From: Azorhizobium caulinodans ORS 571
Lineage (GTDB): Bacteria; Pseudomonadota; Alphaproteobacteria; Rhizobiales; Xanthobacteraceae
Reading direction: 5' to 3'
NCBI RefSeq assembly: GCF_000010525.1
Contig: NC_009937.1
Location: 186,001 to 250,000, forward strand
Length of the DNA stretch: 64,000 bases
In this document: positions 42,594-49,405 of the stretch, piece after piece
How the letters are laid out: each line of letters opens with the position of its first letter
Numbering within the stretch: the stretch's first letter is position 1
Position numbers and translations under genes: made by a program
The notes under the pieces: model-generated
Told to the model about the DNA's origin: nothing
The model's database searches: none
What the model saw: the letters and a program-made list of their open reading frames with translations, nothing else

Positions 42594-42673
42594 TTCGGGT
42601 GCGGGTGACACTGTTCACGATGACGCGCCGCGTGCGCCGCCGGAGCGGCGAGATCGGCGTTAGGGGATTGGCC

Positions 42674-45274
42674 ATGTCACAGAGCGTTGCCGCCGCACCC
42701 GCCATCTCGGGACGCACCCCACCGGCAAAAGCGAAGCCCGCGGACGGCGGATCTTCGCGGCTCGATGCCGATGCCATCGCCGCCAAATTCGCAGAACTCA
42801 GTTCCTCGCCGCAGGGACTGAGTTCCGCCGACGCTGCCCGACTGCATCAGACATACGGCCCCAACACCATCGCCGCACATGAGGAGAGCCGCTGGAGCAA
42901 GCTGCTCGGCTATTTCTGGGGTCCCATTCCCTGGATGATCGAAGCGGCGGCGCTGCTCTCGCTGATCCGGCTCGACTGGCCCGACTTTATCGTCGTGATG
43001 GGCCTGTTGCTCTACAACGCCGTCGTCGGCTTCTGGCAGGACAGCAAGGCCGCAAGTGCGCTTGCAGCGCTGAAGAAGGGCCTCGCGCTGAAGGCCCGCG
43101 TGCTGCGGGATGGCAACTGGATCACGGTCGACACCAGCGATCTGGTACCCGGCGATGTGGTGAGCATCTCCGGCGGTGAGACGCTGCCGGCCGATCTGAT
43201 CCTGACCGAAGGCAAGTATCTCTCCGTCGATCAGGCCGCGCTGACGGGCGAATCGCTGCCGGTTTCCAAGTCGGTCGGCGATAGCGGCTATTCCGGCTCC
43301 ATCGTGCGTCAGGGCGCGATGACCGCGCTCATCACCGCGACCGGCAACGCCACCTTCTTCGGCCGCACCGCGAAGCTCGTCGCCTCCGCCGGCGCCAAGT
43401 CGCATGCGGAGAAGGCGGTCATCCAGATGGGTGACTTCCTGATCATCCTCTCGGCGGCGCTGGCGCTGCTGCTCGTCGTCGCGCAGGTCCACCGCGACAT
43501 CGTCGCCGAAGGGCACTGGGAATGGGCCCATGCGGGCGCCATCGTCCAGCTCGTTCTCGTCCTGCTGGTCGCCTCGGTGCCGGTGGCGACGCCGGCGGTG
43601 ATGTCCGTCACCATGGCGCTGGGTGCGCTGGCCCTGTCGAAGCAGCAGGCCATCGTCTCCCGTCTATCCGCGATCGAGGAACTGGCTGGCGTCGACGTGC
43701 TGTGCTCGGACAAGACCGGCACGCTGACCATGAACCAGCTCACGCTCCAGCCCCCGATCCCCTGGGGGTCGGCGGCACCGGACGAACTGATCCTGGGCGC
43801 GGCTCTCGCCTCGCAGAAGCAGAGCGCCGACGCCATCGACAAGGCGGTGCTGGCGGGCCTCAAGGACCCGAAGGTGCTCGACCAATATCGACAGGTCGAC
43901 TTCACGCCCTTCGACCCCGTCAGCAAGAAGACCGCTGCCGCCGTGGCCGGACCGGACGGGAAGACCGTGCATTATGCGAAGGGAGCGCCGCAGGTCATCG
44001 CGGCGCTGTGCGGGCTCGGCCCCGATGGCGGAAACGCCTATTTCGATGCAGTCGCGAAGTTGGCCCACGATGGCACGCGCGCGCTCGGCGTGGCGCGCTC
44101 CGACGACGGCACGCACTGGACCCTGCTCGGCCTGCTGCCGATGCTCGATCCGCCGCGCCCCGATGCTGCGGCGACCATTGCACATGCGCAGAAACTCGGC
44201 ATCGCCGTGAAGATGGTGACCGGGGACGATGTGGCCATCGGCAGCGAGATTTCCCGCCAGCTCGGCCTCGGCGACCACTTGCTGGTCGCCGGCGAAGTGT
44301 TTGGAGAGGACGCCAATCCCGAGCACATCGCCATCGACGCGGTCCGGGCGGTGGAAGTGGCGGATGGCTTCGGCCGCGTCTTCCCGGCGCACAAGTTCGA
44401 GATCGTGAAGGCGCTGCAGGAAGGTGGCCACATCGTCGCCATGACGGGCGACGGCGTCAACGACGCACCGGCACTGAAGCAGGCCGATTGCGGCGTGGCG
44501 GTATCGGGCGCCACGGATGCGGCACGCAGCGCGGCGGCGCTGATCCTCACGGCGCCGGGCCTGTCGACCATCATCGCGGCGATCATGGAGGCGCGCGCCA
44601 TCTTCGAGCGCATCACCAGCTACATTTACTACCGCATCGCGATGACGCTCAACATCATGCTCGTCGTGGTGCTGACCTATCTCGTCTATAATTTCATGCC
44701 GCTTACCGCGATCATGATCGTCGTCATGGCGTTGCTGGACGACATCCCGATCATGACGATCGCCTATGACAACGTGAAGGTTCAGGATCGGCCGGTGCGC
44801 TGGAACATGCACCGGATCATCTCCTTCTCCACTGTCATGGGCATCATGGCTCTGGTGCAGAGCTTCGGCATCGTCATGCTCGGCATGTTCTGGATGAAGA
44901 GCCCGGGACTGACCGCCATCCTGCCCATGGACCAGGCGCATGTGCAGACTATGCTGTTCCTTCAGTTGGCGGCGGGGGGCCACCTCCTGTTCTTCGTCTC
45001 GCGGGTGCAGGGCACGCTGTTCAAGCCGCCCTATCCGAGCCTGCCGGTGATGGGCGCGGTGATGGGCACACAGGTGTTCGCCATCTTCATGTGCGCGTTC
45101 GGCTGGTTCATGCCGGCGCTGCCGTGGCTGCTGATCGGCATCGTTTGGGTCTACTGCCTGGTGTGGACGCTCATCATGGATCTGGTGAAGCTGCTCTATT
45201 TCCACATGGTCGACCGGCGAGACCGGCAACGCAGCATCATCGACAGCTCGATCGGCCCGGCCATGCCGCATTGA
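42674..45274 (+). CDS. P3A-type (plasma-membrane proton-pumping) P-type ATPase
   Basis: 866 residues. Actuator TGES (ALTGESLPVSK), transmembrane PVATPAVMSVTMALG, phosphorylation site Asp346 (CSDKTGTLTMNQ), nucleotide-binding KGAPQ, MVTGDD and GDGVNDAPALKQAD. The helix-6 motif LLDDIPIMTIAYDNV is the P3A type, resembling yeast and plant H+-ATPases and their archaeal/bacterial relatives. It lacks the eukaryotic C-terminal autoinhibitory tail. It should expel H+ from the cytosol at the cost of ATP. ATG 42674 has AGGGGA upstream. About 120 bp separate it from ackA, with its own FNR/FixK-like box. Confidence 0.92.
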   Translation: MSQSVAAAPAISGRTPPAKAKPADGGSSRLDADAIAAKFAELSSSPQGLSSADAARLHQTYGPNTIAAHEESRWSKLLGYFWGPIPWMIEAAALLSLIRLDWPDFIVVMGLLLYNAVVGFWQDSKAASALAALKKGLALKARVLRDGNWITVDTSDLVPGDVVSISGGETLPADLILTEGKYLSVDQAALTGESLPVSKSVGDSGYSGSIVRQGAMTALITATGNATFFGRTAKLVASAGAKSHAEKAVIQMGDFLIILSAALALLLVVAQVHRDIVAEGHWEWAHAGAIVQLVLVLLVASVPVATPAVMSVTMALGALALSKQQAIVSRLSAIEELAGVDVLCSDKTGTLTMNQLTLQPPIPWGSAAPDELILGAALASQKQSADAIDKAVLAGLKDPKVLDQYRQVDFTPFDPVSKKTAAAVAGPDGKTVHYAKGAPQVIAALCGLGPDGGNAYFDAVAKLAHDGTRALGVARSDDGTHWTLLGLLPMLDPPRPDAAATIAHAQKLGIAVKMVTGDDVAIGSEISRQLGLGDHLLVAGEVFGEDANPEHIAIDAVRAVEVADGFGRVFPAHKFEIVKALQEGGHIVAMTGDGVNDAPALKQADCGVAVSGATDAARSAAALILTAPGLSTIIAAIMEARAIFERITSYIYYRIAMTLNIMLVVVLTYLVYNFMPLTAIMIVVMALLDDIPIMTIAYDNVKVQDRPVRWNMHRIISFSTVMGIMALVQSFGIVMLGMFWMKSPGLTAILPMDQAHVQTMLFLQLAAGGHLLFFVSRVQGTLFKPPYPSLPVMGAVMGTQVFAIFMCAFGWFMPALPWLLIGIVWVYCLVWTLIMDLVKLLYFHMVDRRDRQRSIIDSSIGPAMPH

Positions 45275-45353
45275 GCCACACCGGCCCATGCCGGCAGACC
45301 GGAGTTTTCCAACAATAACTTCTTCAAAATAATGTTGAGCGTCTTGTCATGGA

Positions 45354-45390
45354 GAGAGCAGGCCGGGCGAAAGGCGGCCGACCTGCTCTC
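45354..45390 (+). terminator. Candidate terminator after the proton ATPase
   Basis: GAGAGCAGG (45354-45362) pairs with CCTGCTCTC (45382-45390). The inner GGCCG and CGGCC can also pair. The stem is followed by TTATCCTG, a short U-tract only, so termination may be partial. Confidence 0.5.
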
Positions 45391-45478
45391 TTATCCTGCT
45401 CTTCAATCGCGTACGCGGGGGGCTAGCATGCGCAGTCGCGAGCCATAGGCCGCTATGCGCAGCTCGTGCACGCGATTA

Positions 45479-45610
45479 TCAGCAGCAGCCCTTGAGGTGT
45501 ACGCACCCACAACAATTGCCCTGGCCGCAGCCCGCATGAGCATTGACGGCAAAAATCGGCGAGGAAACGAGCAGAGCCGCAGCAAACAGAGATGCCGTGA
45601 ACTTCTTCAT
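45479..45610 (-). CDS. Small secreted Cys-rich peptide, 43 residues
   Basis: Translation begins MKKFTASLFAAALLV, continues SSPIFAVNAHAG and ends CGQGNCCGCVHLKGCC. It has a full signal peptide (Lys-Lys n-region, 12-15 residue hydrophobic core, cleavage near AHA|G). The mature part of about 18 residues contains six Cys, arranged C-x4-CC-x-C-x5-CC, plus a His. The RBS AGGAGGG is six bases before the ATG, which strongly supports translation. Six Cys and one His suggest metal binding or disulphide cross-linking, for example metallothionein-like. I do not recognise a named family. It is convergent with the proton ATPase gene. Confidence 0.75.
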   Translation of the reverse strand: MKKFTASLFAAALLVSSPIFAVNAHAGCGQGNCCGCVHLKGCC

Positions 45611-45848
45611 GATGATCCCTCCTGAAAGGAGGCCCTACGCAACCTGCCTGATCGCGATTTCTACGTGGACCTCACGCGAAAATTACTAATGGGCGCGCTA
45701 TTCCGGAGTCAATATCGCGCAAAAGCTCGATAGCCGTGAAGCTGGGGGCGTGCCACCAGAACGCTTAAGCCATTACAAAGTCGATTTTTTCTCGTCGATT
45801 TTGCACTCTTAACGCCTCTCCATCACGGGGGTGCGCATCTGCGATGCC

Positions 45849-45881
45849 ATATCGGGATATACGTTCGTATATGCCTGATAT
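45849..45881. promoter_or_regulatory. Long inverted repeat, candidate operator
   Basis: ATATCGGGATATACG (45849-45863), TT, CGTATATGCCTGATAT (45866-45881): a 15/16-base dyad with one mismatch and one single-base bulge. The AT-rich ATATAC/GTATAT core resembles ArsR/CsoR-type operators or a hairpin. It lies between the Cys-rich peptide gene (leftward) and a small unknown gene (rightward). Confidence 0.45.
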
Positions 45882-46099
45882 TCTATTTATACTTAGAAAA
45901 TCTGATTTCGGCGTGGACCGTGCCTAGTCAGGTTGCTATGTGACGCATGCATTCGATGACATTGTGCTCCGGATGCCAGATCGGAACCTTGAAATGCCCA
46001 GCGACAGTAGTCGAAGAAACGTGCCGCGCGGCCTATCCGGTCGGGTCTGAGAAATCGGTCTCGCCCTGACGGCCCGCGCGGCGCGTCCAGGAGTGAGAC

Positions 46100-46417
46100 A
46101 TGAACCGAGTCTTCTTCGCTTCGCGCGGCGTCTTCGCGCGCCTCTTTGCTCGCCTTTTCTGTGCGGGCGCCTACAAGCCTCAAATCCCGGTCGCGGTCGC
46201 AGCACCCTTTTTCTCGCCCGTCCACGCCAACGCGCCGTCTGAGCGGCGGAGGCCGCACGCCGTGTGGTCCGTCAATGCGGACACCGGCCGCATAGAATGC
46301 AGGTGGACCACCGACGGCGACGAGATCGCCGAATGGCTCTGTCGGCCCTTGATTGAACGGGCAGGCCTGATCCTTGCTGCCACTCAGCCTTCACTCGGGA
46401 CAGGGTCATTCAGATGA
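46100..46417 (+). CDS. Small hypothetical protein
   Basis: 105 residues. ATG with AGGAG six bases upstream. The N-terminal third is hydrophobic and basic (VFFASRGVFARLFARLFCAGAY); the middle part RPHAVWSVNADTGRIECRWT looks like a conserved block, and a short helical tail follows. No family is recognised with certainty. It ends about 270 bp before mgtA and could be on the same transcript. Confidence 0.45.
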   Translation: MNRVFFASRGVFARLFARLFCAGAYKPQIPVAVAAPFFSPVHANAPSERRRPHAVWSVNADTGRIECRWTTDGDEIAEWLCRPLIERAGLILAATQPSLGTGSFR

Positions 46418-46690
46418 CCTTCGCCAGGCCCTCGCGGCTACCTCGATCCTCCCGCTGAAGCCTGCCTCGGCCCCCTGCGCCCCGCCTTCCGGTTCGGGCG
46501 CGGGGCGTCGAGCCGTTGCTGAAGCTGCGTGACCGGGCTCCAGCAGCGCCGCCCCAGCAGCGCTGGCCCGCCGAGGCGGCCCCCCTTCCTCCAGGAAACC
46601 CTCCATGACGCCCCAGCGCATCATGGCTGCGCTTCCGTCTTCCGGTCGGAGGCGGCATGCAGTCATGATACGCGACAGGAGACTGAGCAG
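46418..46690 (+). other. Long leader of mgtA
   Basis: 273 bp without a clear gene, rich in short complementary runs such as CAGCAGCGCCGCC and CCAGCAGCGCTGG. A frame from 46529 in phase with mgtA is rich in Pro and Arg (PRRPPFL). Leaders of mgtA in enterobacteria sense Mg2+ through RNA structure and a Pro-rich peptide. Whether this leader is regulatory cannot be shown by reading; no M-box core was recognised. Confidence 0.3.
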
Positions 46691-49405
46691 ATGAATACTG
46701 TCGTGAAACCCGCCTCGCTGAAGGCCGAGAGGCTGGACAGCCGCAAGCTGTCGATGCGGGCGGTCGTCGAGGCCCGGAACGACGTCGACATGACGCTGGC
46801 CAATATGAACGCACGCCTCGACGGCCTGACCTTTGCTGAGGCGGAGCGACGGCTGGCCGCGTCCGGACCGAACGAGGTGGCGCGTGATCGGCGGCCGCCC
46901 GCGGTCATCCAGTTCCTGCTGGCGTTCAAGAACCCTTTCATCGCGGTTTTGATCCTGCTGGCCGCGATCAATTCGGTGACCGACATCATCTTGCCGCTCC
47001 GCAAGGGCGAAGATCCAGATTACACCACGGTGACGATCATTCTCACCATGGTGATGCTGAGTGCTCTCCTTCGCTTCTGGCAGGAATACCGGTCCGGCAA
47101 CGCTGCCGATGCGCTGAAGGCGATGGTGCGGACCACGGCGACCGTGATACGCCGCGCGAGTCCCACGTCGGGACCCGAAATCCGCGAAATCCCGATGGCG
47201 CAGATCGTCACGGGCGACATCATTCGACTGTCGGCTGGCGACATGATCCCGGCCGACATCCGGCTCGTCGAGTCGCGAGACCTGTTCGTCAGCCAGGCGG
47301 CGTTGACCGGCGAGGCGCTGCCGGTCGAGAAGTACGATACGCTGGGCGCCGTCGCCAAGAAATCAGCCGGGGCCGCCGCCGGCGAACAGACCGGGCTGCT
47401 CGATCTGCCGAGCATCTGCTTCATGGGCACGAACGTGGTCTCGGGAACGGCCACCGCCGTCGTCGTGGCGACCGGTACGCACACCTATTTCGGTTCGCTC
47501 GCGAAGACGATCGTCGGATCGCGGGCGGAGACGGCGTTCGACCGCGGCGTCAACAGCGTCAGCTGGCTGTTGATCCGCTTCATGCTGGTGATGGCGCCCG
47601 TCGTTTTTCTGATCAACGGCCTGACCAAGGGCGACTGGATGGAGGCGTTTCTTTTCGCCCTGGCCGTCGCAGTCGGTCTGACGCCGGAAATGCTGCCGAT
47701 GATCGTCTCGTCCAACCTCGCCAAGGGTGCCGTCGCGATGGCGCGGCACAAGGTGGTGGTGAAGCGCCTCAACGCCATCCAGAATTTCGGCGCGATGGAC
47801 GTGCTGTGCACCGACAAGACCGGCACGCTGACACAAGATAAAATCATCCTGGAGCACCACGTCGACATCGAGGGCAAGCCGGACGACGACGTGCTTCGCT
47901 TTGCGTGGCTGAACAGCCACCACCAGAGCGGCGTCAGGAACCTCATGGACCAGGCCGTTGTCCATTTTGCCGAGCGTGCGCCCGAGGTCCTGCACTCGGT
48001 GATGTCCTACGGCAAGGTCGAAGAACTGCCTTTCGATTTCGTTCGGCGGCGACTGTCAGTCATCCTTGAGGACCGGTGGGGACGCCAGCTGCTGATCTGC
48101 AAGGGTTCGGTCGAGGAGATGCTGGCGATCTCGACACGCGTCCGGGACGGCGAGACGACACGGGTCCTCGCAGAGCCCGAACGCGATCGCCTGCTGGCCC
48201 TCGCCCGGGCCTACAACGCAGACGGTTTTCGCGTTCTTGTCGTCGCCACGCGCGAGATTCCGGACGGCGCATCCAAATCCCATTACACCATCGACGATGA
48301 GAGGGATCTCGTCGTCCAGGGCTTCCTCACCTTCCTCGATCCGCCGAAGGAGACGGCCGGGCCGGCCCTCGCCGCCCTCGCCGCCCATGGCGTGACGGTC
48401 AAGGTGCTGACCGGCGACAATGAGGTCGTCACCGCAAAGATCTGCCGCGAGGTCGGGCTGGATCCCGGTCTCCCGCTTCTGGGGCGGGAGATCGAGCAAC
48501 TCGACGACGCCGCGCTGCGTCTTGCGGTCGAGCAGCGGACGATCTTCGCGAAGCTGACCCCGTTGCAGAAATCGCGCGTCCTGACCGCGCTGCAGGCCAA
48601 CGGCCATACGGTGGGATTCCTGGGCGACGGCATCAATGACGCGCCTGCACTGCGCGACGCCGATGTCGGCATCTCGGTCGACAGCGGTACGGATATCGCC
48701 AAGGAATCCGCTGATATCATCCTTCTCGAGAAAAGCCTCATGGTCCTGGAGGAAGGCGTCGTCAGGGGGCGTGAGACCTTCGGAAATATCATCAAATATC
48801 TGAACATGACCGCCAGCTCGAACTTCGGCAACGTATTCTCGGTGCTGGTGGCGAGCGCCTTCCTTCCCTTCCTGCCGATGCTTGCGATCCATCTCCTGAT
48901 CCAGAATCTGATGTACGATATCTCGCAACTGTCGTTGCCTTGGGATCGGATGGACGAGGAATTCCTCCGCAAGCCCCGCAAATGGGACGCCAGGAACATC
49001 GGGCGCTTCATGATCTGGATGGGACCGACGTCATCGATCTTTGACATCACGACCTTCGCGCTCATGTGGTTCGTCTTTGCAGCCAACACGCCGGAGCAAC
49101 AGTCGCTGTTCCAGTCGGGCTGGTTCATCGAGGGCTTGCTGTCTCAAACACTGGTGGTGCACATGCTGCGCACGCAGAAGATCCCGTTCATCCAGACCCG
49201 TGCGGCGTTGCCGGTAATGCTCATGACGGGGCTCGTCTGCGCCCTTGGCATCTACATTCCGTTCTCGCCGCTCGGCGCCATGGTTGGGCTGCAGCCGCTG
49301 CCCTGGCAGTATTTCCCCTGGCTGGCCGCAACGCTGCTGAGCTACTGTCTTCTCGCCCAAGGCATGAAGACGTTCTACATCCGCCGCTTTCGCCAGTGGC
49401 TGTGA
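46691..49405 (+). CDS. mgtA: Mg2+-importing P-type ATPase
   Basis: 904 residues, P3B type. Actuator ALTGEALPVEK, transmembrane motif VGLTPEMLPMIVSSNLAKGAVAMARHKVVVKRL, phosphorylation Asp375 (CTDKTGTLTQDK), KGSVEEML in the nucleotide-binding domain, FLGDGINDAPALRDADVGISVDSG in the hinge, and the MgtA-type LNMTASSNFGNVFSVL and NLMYDISQLSLPWDRMD in the C-terminal membrane domain. It moves Mg2+ into the cytosol. ATG 46691 has AGGAG nine bases upstream; the frame runs upstream to 46529. It follows the proton ATPase in the same direction after a 1.4-kb region with small genes. Confidence 0.95.
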   Translation: MNTVVKPASLKAERLDSRKLSMRAVVEARNDVDMTLANMNARLDGLTFAEAERRLAASGPNEVARDRRPPAVIQFLLAFKNPFIAVLILLAAINSVTDIILPLRKGEDPDYTTVTIILTMVMLSALLRFWQEYRSGNAADALKAMVRTTATVIRRASPTSGPEIREIPMAQIVTGDIIRLSAGDMIPADIRLVESRDLFVSQAALTGEALPVEKYDTLGAVAKKSAGAAAGEQTGLLDLPSICFMGTNVVSGTATAVVVATGTHTYFGSLAKTIVGSRAETAFDRGVNSVSWLLIRFMLVMAPVVFLINGLTKGDWMEAFLFALAVAVGLTPEMLPMIVSSNLAKGAVAMARHKVVVKRLNAIQNFGAMDVLCTDKTGTLTQDKIILEHHVDIEGKPDDDVLRFAWLNSHHQSGVRNLMDQAVVHFAERAPEVLHSVMSYGKVEELPFDFVRRRLSVILEDRWGRQLLICKGSVEEMLAISTRVRDGETTRVLAEPERDRLLALARAYNADGFRVLVVATREIPDGASKSHYTIDDERDLVVQGFLTFLDPPKETAGPALAALAAHGVTVKVLTGDNEVVTAKICREVGLDPGLPLLGREIEQLDDAALRLAVEQRTIFAKLTPLQKSRVLTALQANGHTVGFLGDGINDAPALRDADVGISVDSGTDIAKESADIILLEKSLMVLEEGVVRGRETFGNIIKYLNMTASSNFGNVFSVLVASAFLPFLPMLAIHLLIQNLMYDISQLSLPWDRMDEEFLRKPRKWDARNIGRFMIWMGPTSSIFDITTFALMWFVFAANTPEQQSLFQSGWFIEGLLSQTLVVHMLRTQKIPFIQTRAALPVMLMTGLVCALGIYIPFSPLGAMVGLQPLPWQYFPWLAATLLSYCLLAQGMKTFYIRRFRQWL

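Follow-up and report, generated by a model that had tools for sequence, protein, structure and literature searches.

A candidate Sec-exported small peptide with six cysteines, encoded between two P-type ATPase genes of Azorhizobium caulinodans ORS571

A 43-codon open reading frame lying between two P-type ATPase genes of Azorhizobium caulinodans ORS571 may encode a lineage-specific thiol peptide with six cysteines, which would be exported by Sec and either bind a soft metal or be oxidised to disulphides, with a hairpin lying over its Shine-Dalgarno (SD) sequence. We place this preferred reading at slightly less than an even chance. The small ORF was found in a window of 64,000 nucleotides (the whole stretch of DNA analysed) and maps to 231,479-231,610 on the minus strand of the 5,369,772-base chromosome (PMC2443382). 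An initial annotation of the window had proposed a real, secreted, Cys-dense small ORF here; its existence and coordinates stood, and the strand, which that annotation left out, is minus, since the plus strand reads differently. Window coordinates of the features discussed below are as follows.

45479-45610, minus strand: small ORF, 43 aa, MKKFTASLFAAALLVSSPIFAVNAHAGCGQGNCCGCVHLKGCC; the only one of its kind in 2.46 Mb
45533-45610, minus strand: predicted Sec/signal peptidase I signal peptide, residues 1-26, cut AHA/G (heuristic)
45482-45532, minus strand: predicted mature peptide, GCGQGNCCGCVHLKGCC, 17 residues of which six are Cys
45618-45632, minus strand: perfect 6-bp hairpin CCTCCT-TTC-AGGAGG with the whole SD inside, -8.7 kcal/mol (computed fold)
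45405-45477, minus strand: stem-loop directly after the stop codon of the small ORF, 13-nt arms, 85%
45353-45391, no strand assigned: long dyad, rich in GC, in the gap that separates the small ORF from the convergent ATPase gene, 17-nt arms, 88%
45854-45875, no strand assigned: imperfect palindrome GGGATATACG-TT-CGTATATGCC upstream of the small ORF, seen in sequence only

The 43 codons contain every element of the textbook signal peptide that had been claimed for them, namely a KK n-region, a hydrophobic core and an AxA site. Signal peptidase would cut after AHA, and an alternative cut after residue 24 (VNA/H) is possible. The mature part had been described as 18 residues with six Cys; the six cysteines are there, but 17 residues follow the predicted AHA/G cut. 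They are arranged as C-x4-CC-x-C-x5-CC, so that the predicted mature peptide is 35% Cys, with CCxC and CC motifs, one His and no Asp, Glu or aromatic residue. This make-up is metallothionein-like, and suits soft-metal binding and disulphide formation alike. A lipobox for signal peptidase II ([LVI][ASTVI][GAS]C) is absent at the first Cys, where the local sequence is AHAGC; because a His occupies position -3 from this Cys, we dropped the lipoprotein reading. With its SD, Sec signal and short, Cys-dense mature part, the predicted product fits the broad kind of a small exported Cys-rich peptide.

Upstream of the ATG, a full AGGAGG SD (45618-45623) lies at a distance of 7 nt. The ribosome-binding site had been called very strong, which holds for its sequence and ideal spacing but not for its accessibility: AGGAGG is the 3' arm of the 6-bp hairpin and is fully base-paired in the static fold, so the site may be closed unless the hairpin is opened. 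The small ORF has non-coding flanks of its own on both the 5' and 3' sides, and a scan for a promoter-like site found none. The palindrome at 45854-45875 is a possible operator.

To judge chance, we scanned for ORFs of 30-80 aa with an SD, signal-peptide features, an AxA site and four or more Cys beyond the cut. The small ORF was the sole match in the 2.46 Mb of its genome that were scanned, under thresholds that were fixed only after it had been seen. The same scan of 12.5 Mb of first-order Markov sequence returned two ORFs, which had four or five Cys; no six-Cys ORF turned up. A sole match in the genome, together with the absence of a six-Cys ORF from the Markov sequence, puts the combination of features well beyond chance. 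Sequence statistics thus support a real, exported, Cys-dense small ORF, and conservation does not, so that the proposal of the initial annotation is borne out in part.

Relatives were sought at several distances. The two other Azorhizobium species gave no match. Across 297 genomes of the family only sub-threshold matches appeared, each of which, on inspection by eye, proved to be a piece of some other frame or protein, and 397 genomes of the order yielded only weak matches. A tblastn search against plasmids and phages (E up to 10) returned no match, although low-complexity filtering may have masked some of the query. Pfam, NCBIfam, PADLOC and PDB searches with the product gave nothing usable; PHROGs returned PHROG_2656 (E 0.0047) and phrog_25504 (E 0.066), both weak and starting inside the signal peptide. 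A degenerate Cys-spacing pattern run across the order recovered only CTG-repeat style matches, about as frequent in a reversed control. Pattern searches were run with GCGxGxCCGC on GTDB contigs and with CGxGxCCGC on IMG/VR; none of the matches listed was a short ORF encoding a signal peptide. At the DNA level, the intergenic region gave only short chance matches in plasmids, phages and its own genome, and a literature search through guessed locus tags found nothing on the small ORF.

Synteny gave the same answer. The small ORF is missing beside the H+-ATPase gene in eight relatives with matches (seven being orthologues at 87-91% identity), and where the H+-ATPase is 87-91% identical other genes occupy its place; it is also missing in seven relatives carrying the MgtA-type gene. 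The initial annotation had set, as a test of its proposal, whether relatives keep the Cys pattern; in every collection searched the outcome was negative. Since no homologue was found in any of them, purifying selection cannot be shown. By that criterion the missing conservation counts against a conserved function, but it leaves room for a gene that is young or evolving fast, and we regard the small ORF as a credible small gene of the unannotated type, an orphan.

The strongest competing explanation is that the small ORF is a recent or chance ORF without function, arising de novo or decaying, perhaps transcribed but giving no useful peptide. We consider this unlikely, though less so than the other alternatives. 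It agrees with the orphan status in all searches, with the occlusion of the SD by the hairpin and with base composition: GC3 is 64%, a weak point for a real gene in a genome with an overall GC3 of 85% (PMC2443382), and the intergenic region is 55% GC against 67% for the window. What it does not account for is the combination of a full SD, a signal peptide and six Cys, unmatched in both the Markov sequence and the 2.46 Mb of genome.

Under our preferred reading of a lineage-specific exported thiol peptide, this orphan gene of A. caulinodans ORS571 would be translated, with the hairpin over the SD possibly holding translation down. Sec would export the product, signal peptidase I would cleave it behind AHA, and a peptide of about 17 residues with six Cys would be released to the periplasm or outside. 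Its thiols might then bind a soft metal ion in the manner of a metallothionein, or oxidise to disulphides. If translated, it would rank with the smallest Cys-rich peptides that a Gram-negative bacterium exports. Its gene, in an accessory region of a model stem-nodulating symbiont, would then exemplify those that annotation pipelines miss for being both too short and too restricted to one lineage. For now, as an orphan, the small ORF is of modest weight.

A second alternative is a secreted disulphide-rich peptide that acts outside the cell, in bacterial competition or in signalling to the plant host. The Sec signal agrees with such a role, and six Cys in 17 residues would permit three disulphides. 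Species-restricted genes are common among secreted competition and signalling factors, which also counts in its favour. Against it, no immunity, processing or dedicated export gene adjoins the small ORF, and the peptide resembles no known peptide in PDB or the family libraries. We rate this role as rather improbable.

A more specific version of the metal-binding side would be a species-specific, 17-residue Sec-exported mini-metallothionein, gated by the SD hairpin, that buffers a periplasmic soft metal such as copper in this nitrogen-fixing symbiont. This is a speculative proposal to which we give a low probability. Bacterial metallothioneins such as SmtA/BmtA and MymT have a high Cys share, CC and CxC-type clusters and few aromatic residues, all of which recur here. 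However, those proteins are cytosolic and at least 50 aa long, whereas the small ORF product has a Sec signal and a predicted mature part of 17 aa, and it matched no metallothionein family profile in the Pfam or NCBIfam scans. The oxidising periplasm would also favour disulphides over metal thiolates, which counts against metal binding. Bufferins and other MNIO-modified copper-binding RiPPs are likewise exported Cys-containing peptides, but a RiPP of this type is unsupported because the sole MNIO gene (PF05114) of the genome lies at 4,002,060, 3.8 Mb in chromosome coordinates from the small ORF at 231,479.

The neighbourhood does not point to soft metals either. That the small ORF sits between two cation ATPases is correct: the P-type ATPase gene at 42599-45274 (plus strand) is convergent and that at 46529-49405 is divergent. 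The metal handling read from this position fared less well. Both flanking ATPases have Cation_ATPase_N and E1-E2 domains and no match to a heavy-metal-associated domain, and the CPx motif is absent from both. The first carries the membrane motif PVATP and the second GLTPEMLP, which we take to mark H+ (P3A-type) and Mg-type (MgtA/P3B-type) pumps, as against the CPx of soft-metal pumps. With flanking pumps of H+ and Mg type, soft-metal handling is hardly supported. Other genes in the neighbourhood encode a DUF3141 protein, acetate kinase, a histidine kinase and a response regulator; a TonB receptor, a FecCD permease and a periplasmic binding protein are at least about 10 kb distant. We also observed that neither ATPase gene (42599-49405) is closely matched in the two other species of Azorhizobium, while both have orthologues in other genera of the family, at 87-91% identity for the first and 74% for the second. 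By this distribution, the stretch is an accessory block, possibly a transferred one.

The long dyad at 45353-45391 had also been read as a hint at metal handling. It does lie on the 3' side of the small ORF, but it is most simply, and probably, where transcription of the convergent ATPase gene terminates. The region 45345-45478 folds far better than its shuffles (z -4.8), whereas the whole small-ORF mRNA folds only slightly better (z -1.7). These values bear on the idea of a type I toxin-like small membrane peptide whose mRNA is kept inert by structure. A short hydrophobic peptide, an SD locked in a hairpin and a strongly structured 3' region would all suit a toxin of this kind; a signal-peptidase site followed by a Cys-rich hydrophilic tail is atypical of one, and the whole mRNA fold is barely beyond its shuffles. 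We judge a toxin very improbable.

It is more doubtful still that the Cys-rich nascent peptide is a copper-responsive leader, like the exported nascent peptides CutF (DUF2946) of Rhodobacter capsulatus (PMC9973294) and CruR of Bordetella (PMC9426467). The likeness is of a small ORF with a Sec signal and closely spaced Cys, followed, as in CutF (PMC9973294), by a 3' stem-loop. Here, however, there are six Cys rather than one CxxxC (the spacing is Cx4CCxC, with no exact CxxxC), no proline-rich stall motif at the C-terminus and no DUF2946 match in Pfam. Moreover, the next gene downstream is the convergent ATPase gene at 42599-45274 (plus strand). With no same-direction gene following and the stall motif absent, a CutF- or CruR-like leader is unsupported, and the orientation of the genes largely refutes it.

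Least probable of all is that the locus is a non-coding RNA gene, for an ar35-like sRNA, and that the ORF ahead of it arose by chance: 45352-45477 matches Rfam ar35 (RF02346) over its full length and shares its two-hairpin layout and strong fold, but at 25.9 bits (E 0.018) it falls below the gathering score of 45. Comparably strong matches are common across the order, with weak ones in about half of its genomes, and occur in two control genomes as well. The locus also lacks the conserved CCACGGATGTACTGG stretch found in the strongest ar35 locus and several others, and strong ar35 loci have no Cys peptide in front. We rejected ar35 for 45352-45477 on the widespread weak matches, controls included, and the missing conserved stretch.

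Two side observations concern the Rfam model and its matches. First, a second and better ar35-like match in the same genome, at 1590140-1590265 on the minus strand, scores 40.7 bits, still below 45. Second, in one family of the order the model gives up to seven matches per genome (Rhizobiaceae-like loci L061-L063 among them), some of which lie near a common GACCACGGATGTACTGG-like stretch. As it matches at several places per genome, some of them near this stretch, the model may span more than one kind of element.

A separate observation concerns the other side of the intergenic region, where a conserved non-coding leader of about 110 nt (45993-46103, plus strand) directly precedes a 105-aa ORF (46100-46417, plus strand) that has no Pfam match. 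Its core, AGCGACAGTAGTCGA...TGCCGC, is invariant in three lineages. The leader is 78% identical at loci L288-L291, ahead of the same ORF and an MgtA-type ATPase, and 75% identical on the Haematobacter plasmid NZ_CP035512 (269340-269448), ahead of the hypothetical protein WP_131389770. Searched against Rfam with E up to 5, it gave no match. It is a candidate undescribed regulatory RNA, and may merit more attention. Two features recur in the relatives of the 105-aa ORF that lie behind the same leader: the motif W-x-V-x(3)-TGR-x-EC-x-W, and a C-terminal part of IERAGL-like sequence that is less marked in Haematobacter. These common motifs suggest that the 105-aa ORF and its relatives are probably a real, uncharacterised family of small proteins.
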